Under the pieces are notes generated by a model that was not told where the DNA came from, did not search any database, and was given only the letters and a program-made list of their open reading frames with translations. This document shows, in pieces, positions 37,785-40,925 of a stretch of DNA of 64,000 bases. Source of the DNA: Chitinophaga pinensis (GTDB lineage Bacteria; Bacteroidota; Bacteroidia; B-17B0; Aurantibacillaceae); assembly GCA_945887955.1 (NCBI GenBank), contig CAMCZO010000005.1, forward strand, positions 1 through 64,000. Direction: 5' to 3'. A program made the position numbers and the translations under genes. Position 1 is the first letter of the stretch, and each line of letters starts with the position of its first letter.

Positions 37785-37858
37785 TTGTTTAATGTTTTTA
37801 TTTTACGATTAAACAAATGTGTATATTTGTTTAACTATTTATATTAAAAGTTAAACAA
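37785..37858. promoter_or_regulatory. Four-half-site dyad-symmetric operator candidate upstream of the ECF sigma gene
   Basis: TTGTTTAA 37785-37792, TTAAACAA 37809-37816, TTGTTTAA 37827-37834, TTAAACAA 37851-37858; all exact and symmetric about 37821.5; TATATTTG (-7-like) at 37822-37829. Confidence 0.7.
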
Positions 37859-37859
37859 G

Positions 37860-38366
37860 ATGACGGCAATTGAATTTAATACTCGAATTACTCAAGAAAA
37901 AACTTCGTTAAAAAGTTTTGCATTAAGCCTTACTCATAATATTGATGACGCCTTAGATCTTTTACAAGACACCTATGTTAAGGCAATTACATATCGTGAA
38001 AAGTTTGAAGACAGCACTAATTTAAGGGCATGGCTATTTACTATCATGAAGAATACATTTATAAATGCTTATCGCCGTAACAGAAAAACTAAGCAATTAA
38101 TAAGTAAGGGCGACGAAATCGCTTTAAATCGTGCTTTTAAACAAAATAGTTATGATCACTGCGAGAGTAGAATGAATGCAAAAGAAATTATCAGGCAGAT
38201 TGAAACTCTTGAAGATCAATATAAAGTCCCGTTTACTAGATATTATACTGGATATAAATACGAAGAAATTGCTCATGAAATGAACTTACCTTTAGGTACA
38301 ATCAAAAGTAGAATTTTTATTGCTAGAAAAATTTTAATGGAGAGCTTAAAGCATCTAAATAATTAA
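37860..38366 (+). CDS. ECF-type RNA polymerase sigma factor
   Basis: DALDLLQDTYVKAITYREKFEDSTNLRAWLFTIMKNTFINAYRR (region 2); YEEIAHEMNLPLGTIKSRIFIARKIL (region 4). Confidence 0.93.
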   Translation: MTAIEFNTRITQEKTSLKSFALSLTHNIDDALDLLQDTYVKAITYREKFEDSTNLRAWLFTIMKNTFINAYRRNRKTKQLISKGDEIALNRAFKQNSYDHCESRMNAKEIIRQIETLEDQYKVPFTRYYTGYKYEEIAHEMNLPLGTIKSRIFIARKILMESLKHLNN

Positions 38367-38410: not shown

Positions 38411-39727
38411 ATGAATAAAGATGTTTCTATTTTTTGGTTTAGAAGAGATTTACGACTAGAAGATAATGTAGGTTTATTCTACGCTTTGAGTGAAAATGAA
38501 AACGTACTCCCAATTTTTATTTTTGATAAAAACATTCTAGATAAGTTAGAAGATAAATACGACCGAAGAGTTCATTTTATTCATCAAGCACTTGAAAAAA
38601 TTCAATTAGAGCTCACAAAAATATCTTCTACTTTACTAGTTTTCAATAGCACTCCAAAAGAAATATTTAATAAATTATTAATAGAGTATAAGGTTAAGCG
38701 TGTTTATGTTAATCATGACTACGAGCCATATGCCCAACTAAGAGACGCTGAGATTTTAGAGTTGCTAAATCAACAACATGTTGAGTTTAAAACATATAAG
38801 GACCAATGTATTTTTGAAAAAAAAGAAGTTGTTAAAGATGATGGAACTCCTTATACAGTTTTTACTCCATATAGTAACAAATGGAAAAAAACCCTCAGTT
38901 ATTTACATTACAAATCTTACGAAACTCAAAAATATTTTAATCATTTTCTCAAACAAAGTCCAGAAGAATTGCCAAGCCTTTCGCAACTAGGTTTTGAAGA
39001 AACAGATATAAAGTTATTACCAAACAAAACAGTAAGCGAAGAGTTGATTCAAAAATACAAAGAGCAAAGAGATTTTCCTGCTATTGAAGGCACCAGTAAA
39101 TTAAGTGTTTATTTGCGATTTGGTTTAATAAGTATTAGAGGGCTCGTTTCAAAATCAATAAACTTAAGCCAAACATGGCTTAACGAATTGATTTGGAGAG
39201 ATTTTTATATGATGATTTTATCTAATTTTCCTCATGTCGCAGAACATGCTTTTAAATCAAAATACGAGAGAATTGTTTGGCAAAATAATGAAACAGATTT
39301 TAAAAAATGGTGTAATGGAGAAACTGGCTTTCCTATTGTAGATGCTGGAATGCGGGAATTAAATGCGACAGGATTTATGCACAATCGTGTCCGAATGATT
39401 GTAAGCAGTTTTTTAATAAAAGATTTACTAATTGATTGGCGTTGGGGCGAGGCATATTTCGCGAAAAAATTAAATGATTTTGATTTAAGTGCAAATAACG
39501 GTGGCTGGCAATGGGCTTCAGGAAGTGGTTGCGACTCCGCCCCTTATTTTAGAGTTTTTAATCCATCAGAACAACAAAAAAAGTTTGACCCCAATTTTAT
39601 TTACATAAAAAAATGGATTCCCGAATACGGTTCCACCAACTATCCTGCACCTATAATAGATCATGCCATTGCACGATTAAGGGTAATCAAATTATACAAG
39701 GAAGCCTTAACTGGATTTGGAAATTGA
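38411..39727 (+). CDS. Deoxyribodipyrimidine photolyase/cryptochrome family protein
   Basis: IFWFRRDLRLEDNVGL; TSKLSVYLRFGLIS; WLNELIWRDFYMMIL; FPIVDAGMRELNATGFMHNRVRMIVSSFLIKDLLIDWRWGEAYFAKKLNDFDLSANNGGWQWASGSG. Confidence 0.96.
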   Translation: MNKDVSIFWFRRDLRLEDNVGLFYALSENENVLPIFIFDKNILDKLEDKYDRRVHFIHQALEKIQLELTKISSTLLVFNSTPKEIFNKLLIEYKVKRVYVNHDYEPYAQLRDAEILELLNQQHVEFKTYKDQCIFEKKEVVKDDGTPYTVFTPYSNKWKKTLSYLHYKSYETQKYFNHFLKQSPEELPSLSQLGFEETDIKLLPNKTVSEELIQKYKEQRDFPAIEGTSKLSVYLRFGLISIRGLVSKSINLSQTWLNELIWRDFYMMILSNFPHVAEHAFKSKYERIVWQNNETDFKKWCNGETGFPIVDAGMRELNATGFMHNRVRMIVSSFLIKDLLIDWRWGEAYFAKKLNDFDLSANNGGWQWASGSGCDSAPYFRVFNPSEQQKKFDPNFIYIKKWIPEYGSTNYPAPIIDHAIARLRVIKLYKEALTGFGN

Positions 39728-40190: not shown

Positions 40191-40925
40191 TTATTTTTCT
40201 AATCTTACTAATTTGATTACTCGGATTTTGTGTAAAAACAATATAATGGGATAGGTAGGATCAAATTCAAACCATTTAGCAGCAAAATTTGGTTTTGCCC
40301 CAGCTTGGTGGTGATTATTTTGAAATAATTCTCCCATTAATAAAAAATCAATAAACAAAGTGTTTTTAGATTTGTCAGGACTATCAAAATTTCTATATCC
40401 ATATTTGTGGCCAGCCCAATTAACAATAGCTCCCTGTATAGGCCCAATTAAAAAATTAATTGGTAAAAATAAAAACATCCACCAATGAGTTGCAAAAACA
40501 ATGTAAAATGCAATGTAAGCCCCTGCAAATAACAAGCGTGTGGCCCAGTTATCAGCAATTTTATCAATTGCCGGATATACAGGAAAATTACGGTCGAATT
40601 TATCCTCTACAACAACTTTATTATTTAATACATTGTTATAAATTGTGCGAGTGTGAAGCATCATATGGTAAGCGTCTTTAAAAAAATGCGGCGTATGAGG
40701 ATCTTTTTCGGTGTCGCTGTATGCATGATGCATGCGGTGTAAAATTGCATAGGCTCTTGCATTTAGGTATGATGAACCTTGAGTAATCCAAGAAAATATA
40801 TAGAAAAATTTTTCCCAAAATTTATTCATGGTAAACATTTTGTGAGCAGCATAACGGTGTAGAAAGAATGTTTGCCCGAAAAGTGAAAGGTACCAGTGCA
40901 AGATAATAAAAAGTAAGATGACCAT
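40191..40925 (-). CDS. Acyl-CoA/fatty acid desaturase family protein
   Basis: Histidine boxes HRYAAHK, HRMHHAYSD, NNHHQAGAKPNF with intervening hydrophobic segments. Confidence 0.88.
   Translation of the reverse strand: MVILLFIILHWYLSLFGQTFFLHRYAAHKMFTMNKFWEKFFYIFSWITQGSSYLNARAYAILHRMHHAYSDTEKDPHTPHFFKDAYHMMLHTRTIYNNVLNNKVVVEDKFDRNFPVYPAIDKIADNWATRLLFAGAYIAFYIVFATHWWMFLFLPINFLIGPIQGAIVNWAGHKYGYRNFDSPDKSKNTLFIDFLLMGELFQNNHHQAGAKPNFAAKWFEFDPTYPIILFLHKIRVIKLVRLEK

Follow-up and report, generated by a model that had tools for sequence, protein, structure and literature searches.

Two genes of a probable light-response operon lie next to each other in the window (the whole 64,000-nucleotide stretch of DNA that was analysed): one encodes an ECF sigma factor and the other a member of the DNA photolyase/cryptochrome family, and the photolyase gene is probably co-transcribed with the sigma gene. 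Upstream of the sigma gene lies a 296-bp intergenic region of 83% A+T, beyond which lysS runs in the opposite direction. The start codon of the sigma gene is at 37860, one base before the position (37861) given in an earlier note on this DNA. A fatty acid desaturase gene (window 40191-40925, complement strand) adjoins the photolyase gene, and the neighbours are alike in the closest relative (L226). The features of the locus are as follows.

37785 to 37816, no strand assigned: putative operator unit 1, TTGTTTAA-N16-TTAAACAA, palindromic, upstream of the -7-like element
37785 to 37792, plus strand: half-site 1, TTGTTTAA, exact 8-mer
37809 to 37816, minus strand: half-site 2, TTAAACAA, exact 8-mer, including TAAACA (a TnnACA match)
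37822 to 37829, plus strand: TATATTTG, a -7-like element (TAnnTTTG) of a predicted promoter, beginning 37 bp after the start of unit 1
37827 to 37858, no strand assigned: putative operator unit 2, TTGTTTAA-N16-TTAAACAA, from the -7-like element to 2 bases before the start codon
37827 to 37834, plus strand: half-site 3, TTGTTTAA, exact 8-mer, overlapping the end of the -7-like element
37851 to 37858, minus strand: half-site 4, TTAAACAA, exact 8-mer
37860 to 38366, plus strand: ECF sigma factor, 168 aa (Pfam Sigma70_r2 and r4_2)
38411 to 39727, plus strand: DNA photolyase/cryptochrome family protein, 438 aa (Pfam DNA_photolyase and FAD_binding_7)

The 74 bp from 37785 to 37858 consist of two tandem copies of the palindromic unit TTGTTTAA-N16-TTAAACAA, and the 2.5-Mb assembly of this genome holds the exact spaced pair at the sigma locus alone. 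All four exact 8-mers that the earlier note had reported (at 37785, 37809, 37827 and 37851) were found, their mirror symmetry about 37821.5 is exact, and the arms of the central 10-bp inverted repeat (37809-37818 and 37825-37834) are perfect. TATATTTG was also recovered at 37822-37829, with TTG absent at the usual -33 spacing as the note had said; the two units flank and overlap this predicted TAnnTTTG element. The further claim that four symmetric half-sites are unlikely by chance held for their number, since four or more half-sites in any arrangement were reached in only 9 of 200,000 first-order simulations of the 296-bp intergenic region, and fell for their symmetry: any palindrome, once duplicated in tandem, yields a mirror-symmetric array by itself, and the four-way symmetry is therefore no evidence beyond the duplication of such a unit.

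Conservation was followed through close homologues of the sigma factor (62-92% identity), which were found in 26 genomes of the same genus and in three from other genera of the family. In this set of 30 upstream regions (the window's own included, one mismatch at most allowed per half), at least one TTGTTTAA-N16-TTAAACAA unit was present in 28 and two units, 41-44 bp apart, in 11, so that both the half-sites and the phasing of about 42 bp, whose conservation in relatives the earlier note had proposed to check, are kept. The half-sites are overwhelmingly spaced 24 bp start to start, and the consensus of the unit is roughly TTTTGTTTAAT.TTTT....AAAA..ATTAAACAA. Half-sites of the unit also lie upstream of most sigma homologues examined in more distant families. 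The central TTAAACAA-N10-TTGTTTAA palindrome, which the note had taken as the operator core, was rejected, being missing from the one-unit promoters, which retain the N16 unit; the only similar exact pair in this genome falls inside clpX.

An excess of the unit was also apparent at larger scale. The 7-mer form clearly exceeds the reversed pattern in 41 genomes of the genus, and the exact 8-mer form occurs 178 times in 297 genomes of the class as opposed to 4 times for the reversed control, an excess of about 45-fold. Single half-sites do occur at chance frequency (21 in the window vs 17.2 expected), as would be anticipated were the array a chance pattern in AT-rich DNA; its conservation, its fixed spacing and the reversed-pattern control rule that explanation out, leaving it a negligible probability.

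The genes behind the units were then surveyed. Units lie upstream of crtI-crtB, folE/PTPS, SRPBCC-DUF2805-SDR and photolyase-like genes and beside merR, and 20 of the 26 class loci examined match the query set within 1.5 kb (18 when two loci with DUF4397-like genes alone are left aside). A GTDB-wide scan for three half-sites returned 103 stretches, mostly from Bacteroidota, and 44 of the 80 readable ones carry genes for ECF sigma, CarH-like MerR, CrtI/B, FolE or photolyase (35 with a similar ECF sigma, 15 with crtI, 11 with MerR, 8 with folE and 5 with photolyase). Nine of the remaining stretches are intergenic and separate a rhodopsin gene (Pfam Bac_rhodopsin) from blh (TIGR03753); they typically hold the same four half-sites as the window. 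The earlier note had named many equivalent arrays at unrelated loci as a refutation; the equivalent arrays found elsewhere are mostly located at loci of related function, for example crtI, folE, photolyase and merR. These sequence comparisons show a real, conserved unit, a putative operator, fronting DNA-repair, carotenoid and proteorhodopsin genes across Bacteroidota.

Several other settings of the unit were recorded. The proteorhodopsin-blh arrays (L202, L203, L242, L250, L252, L259, L260, L267 and L272) belong to Flavobacterium-type genomes, 9 of 9 of which encode a CarH-like MerR. Fourteen flavobacterial array loci hold fasciclin-domain genes with no obvious light link; these lipoprotein loci (L211, L213, L219, L221, L222, L224, L225, L230, L232 and others) come from Flavobacteriaceae and usually adjoin mnmA. 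The unit also lies upstream of genes for secreted proteins with a repeated QVIHNCADAAA, DUF4397-like by eye (L115, L116, L117, L118, L170 and L180), and the L116 protein bears a T9SS tail. In Alkalibacillus (Bacillota; L209, L251, L256 and L262), three-half-site arrays of the same geometry lie away from light genes, and the genomes that carry them encode a more distant CarH relative.

Within the genome of the window itself, a second unit with one mismatch was located at C15:34072, 9 bp upstream of an operon for SRPBCC-like, DUF2805-like, SDR, flavin-reductase-like, photolyase-like and DUF2071-like products (names other than photolyase were assigned by likeness to the proteins of relatives). 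At two mismatches or fewer, units in this genome show no excess over the control (32 vs 31), and among them C15:34072 alone is supported by its context. The crtI-crtB promoter of this genome (contig C36) contains two half-sites at non-canonical spacing and no unit, and control of these two genes by the light operator is uncertain.

Since the motif most often adjoins this sigma gene (35 of the 80 GTDB loci), it might be the sigma factor's own promoter, with TTGTTTAA serving as the -35 box of an autoregulated gene. The motif is palindromic, however, and it adjoins merR and crtI in genomes without the sigma factor (G002, G009, G016, G023 and G039), and we regarded autoregulation as largely ruled out and gave it only a very small residual probability. 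In the crt clusters of the genus, units flank merR, including in genomes without this sigma factor, which indicates that the sigma factor is not the binder.

The same loci point to the MerR protein. Other families have merR side by side with one or two units and the sigma gene, joined in two cases by the photolyase gene. MerR is encoded in 27 of 27 sigma-positive genomes of the genus vs 6 of 14 sigma-negative ones (Fisher 3e-5, uncorrected for phylogeny), and a unit is present in at least 30 of 33 MerR-positive vs 1 of 8 MerR-negative genomes (4e-5, likewise without phylogenetic correction). G092, a genome without a CarH-like MerR, has no half-sites at its sigma homologue, which may be a different sigma factor. 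The genome of the window encodes one detected MerR with a B12-binding_2 domain (contig C95, C95:2-547), beside Skp-like genes; its gene ends at the contig end, before the axial-His motif, and Wx9EH is present in the cut protein. A two-mismatch match upstream of this merR was discarded as an operator because it resembles a terminator hairpin.

Among solved structures, the closest relative of the MerR by sequence is T. thermophilus CarH. An AlphaFold model of the homologue L217 (pLDDT 88.7) gave 5c8d/5c8e (TtCarH, E 5e-15) as top PDB matches, and its predicted fold comprises a winged helix, a helix bundle and a Rossmann domain, as in CarH. Alignment of 24 homologues revealed the recognition helix RIWE(Q/K)RY (RxWERRY-like, of the MerR-type winged helix) in nearly all; in the Wx9EH motif W140 and E150 are invariant and H151 nearly so, and in the B12 motif ExHxx(G/S) E187 and H189 are invariant and the Gly is often Ser, the later Ser/GG of this motif (second Gly, Ser) being variably degenerate. 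The protein scored 97 bits against the NCBIfam CarH equivalog model, whose cut-off is 400, and is therefore a CarH relative and not an orthologue by that model. The binder of the unit is almost certainly a CarH relative with a B12-binding domain. The earlier proposal of a light-responsive switch with a CarH/LitR-like MerR encoded elsewhere is thus supported by conservation, target genes and MerR co-occurrence.

The unit was compared with known sites of this protein family. CarH operators are built of 11-bp direct repeats in tandem, nAnnTnnACAn (PMC8156234, PMC9304148), which share a TnnACA core (PMC9304148). With CarH of Thermus thermophilus and Bacillus megaterium (class I LitR) the Bacteroidota system has in common the MerR-type DNA-binding and B12-binding domains, Wx9EH and, in the homologues, a putative axial His, and, at the operator, the TnnACA core (here in TTAAACAA), the overlap with promoter elements (here predicted), and the carotenoid and light-protection targets. 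It differs in that the halves are inverted, 24 bp apart, and that palindromic units rather than 11-bp direct repeats are repeated, at about 42 bp. The direct-repeat signature nAnnTnnACAn was looked for in the units and was absent; an inward offset of 11 scored best among 5-20, barely above 9-13, and hidden 11-bp CarH repeats within N16 are not claimed, the core C not being conserved (4% at 11 bp inward). The inverted-repeat, tandem-unit operator is unlike any characterised CarH site found in the comparison.

Other relatives resemble it in part. The myxobacterial CarA and Cystobacter CarH systems are alike in having an operator of about 55 bp bound stepwise by two dimers (PMC9304148), that of CarA having been reported to comprise two inverted repeats close to -35 (PMC9304148). 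Their operators differ from the Bacteroidota unit in sequence, spacing and promoter type, and these systems use CarS, while their ECF sigma factor CarQ is controlled by the anti-sigma factor CarR. In Streptomyces LitR-LitS, an ECF sigma gene is under the control of a LitR-type B12 MerR, and the sigma factor relays light to other genes (PMC12705666); the likeness here is the adjacency of regulator gene, putative operator and sigma gene in other families, the sigma factor of the window being a positional analogue only. The class II LitR proteins PplR and PmlR of Pseudomonas repress photolyase, SDR, folE and cryB (PMC9758184), gene kinds similar to those fronted by the unit, and their site T(G/A)TACA-N12-TGTA(C/T)A (PMC9758184) is of the inverted type with 18 bp centre to centre, like the inner half-site pair of the window. 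Class II LitR works with a LOV partner and has no B12-binding Rossmann domain, whereas the MerR identified here has a full B12 domain.

The departure from characterised CarH operators (PMC9304148), with halves inverted and 24 bp apart, would also be accounted for if a different dimeric repressor read the units and shared a regulon with the CarH-like MerR, and the fasciclin and DUF4397 targets broaden that regulon. We consider such a repressor improbable, given that many families have units immediately next to merR or between merR and the sigma gene, that 26 of the 27 genomes reached via unit-bearing loci encode a CarH-like MerR, and that the half-site matches the TnnACA core.

Our preferred reading is that the 74 bp serve a Bacteroidota light regulon as an operator of two units, read by a CarH/LitR-like MerR with a B12-binding domain, to which we assign a probability of roughly 0.83; the sites, the geometry of the units, their association with light genes and the co-occurrence with MerR are directly evident in the genomes. 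In the dark, AdoCbl-loaded MerR would occupy both units, unit 1 covering the -33 region and unit 2 the -7/start-site region, and would thereby block transcription of the sigma and photolyase genes; dark repression of these genes by MerR is probable on the layout of the promoter. The distance of about 42 bp corresponds to about four helical turns and makes cooperative binding of two dimers on the same face of the DNA plausible. Light would break the Co-C bond, release MerR and derepress the operon, and the ECF sigma factor would then probably pass the signal on to other genes, in the manner of Streptomyces LitR-LitS.

Instead of repressing, the CarH-like MerR could bind the units mainly as an activator that, in light, remodels a promoter without a -33 box. 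Light-activated LitR does promote litS transcription in Streptomyces (PMC12705666), and classical MerR proteins remodel promoters likewise. TAnnTTTG begins 36-37 bp after the start of unit 1 (37 in the window) in 12 of the 28 genus promoters with a unit, the commonest offset, and TTG at the -33 spacing is absent in most (12 of the 16) genus promoters that have a -7 element near unit 1. The units lie off the centre of the -33/-7 spacer, however, and unit 2 reaches from the last bases of the -7 element over the start site nearly to the ATG, which fits repression better; activation as the main role therefore appears unlikely, though less so than the other alternatives.

Repression by the CarH-like MerR, as preferred here, would overall be a variation on known CarH/LitR-type regulation whose inverted-unit architecture differs from known CarH operators. 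In a search of the open-access literature we found no description of the operator or of CarH in Bacteroidota, and no reports on binding, light or B12 for this regulator in any member of the phylum. Carotenoids induced by light have been described in Bacteroidota with no regulator assigned to them, as in Chryseobacterium lacus, whose authors call the mechanism unknown (PMC7064467), and the operator suggests how light-protection genes may be switched on. The site is defined by sequence, a candidate regulator can be named that nearly all carriers encode, and proteorhodopsin falls within the predicted regulon. That a CarH relative with a B12 domain, acting on this inverted-repeat, tandem-unit operator, directly controls the ECF sigma, photolyase, carotenoid and pterin genes throughout Bacteroidota, as well as the divergent proteorhodopsin-blh pair of Flavobacterium, is somewhat favoured by the evidence. 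If true, the CarH family would recognise the TnnACA core both in inverted and in direct repeats. The proteorhodopsin link matters most: such a regulon would supply the light switch that has been missing for flavobacterial proteorhodopsin, and its control would be directly testable in cultured flavobacteria, among them Flavobacterium gelidilacus, F. aquatile and F. dankookense.
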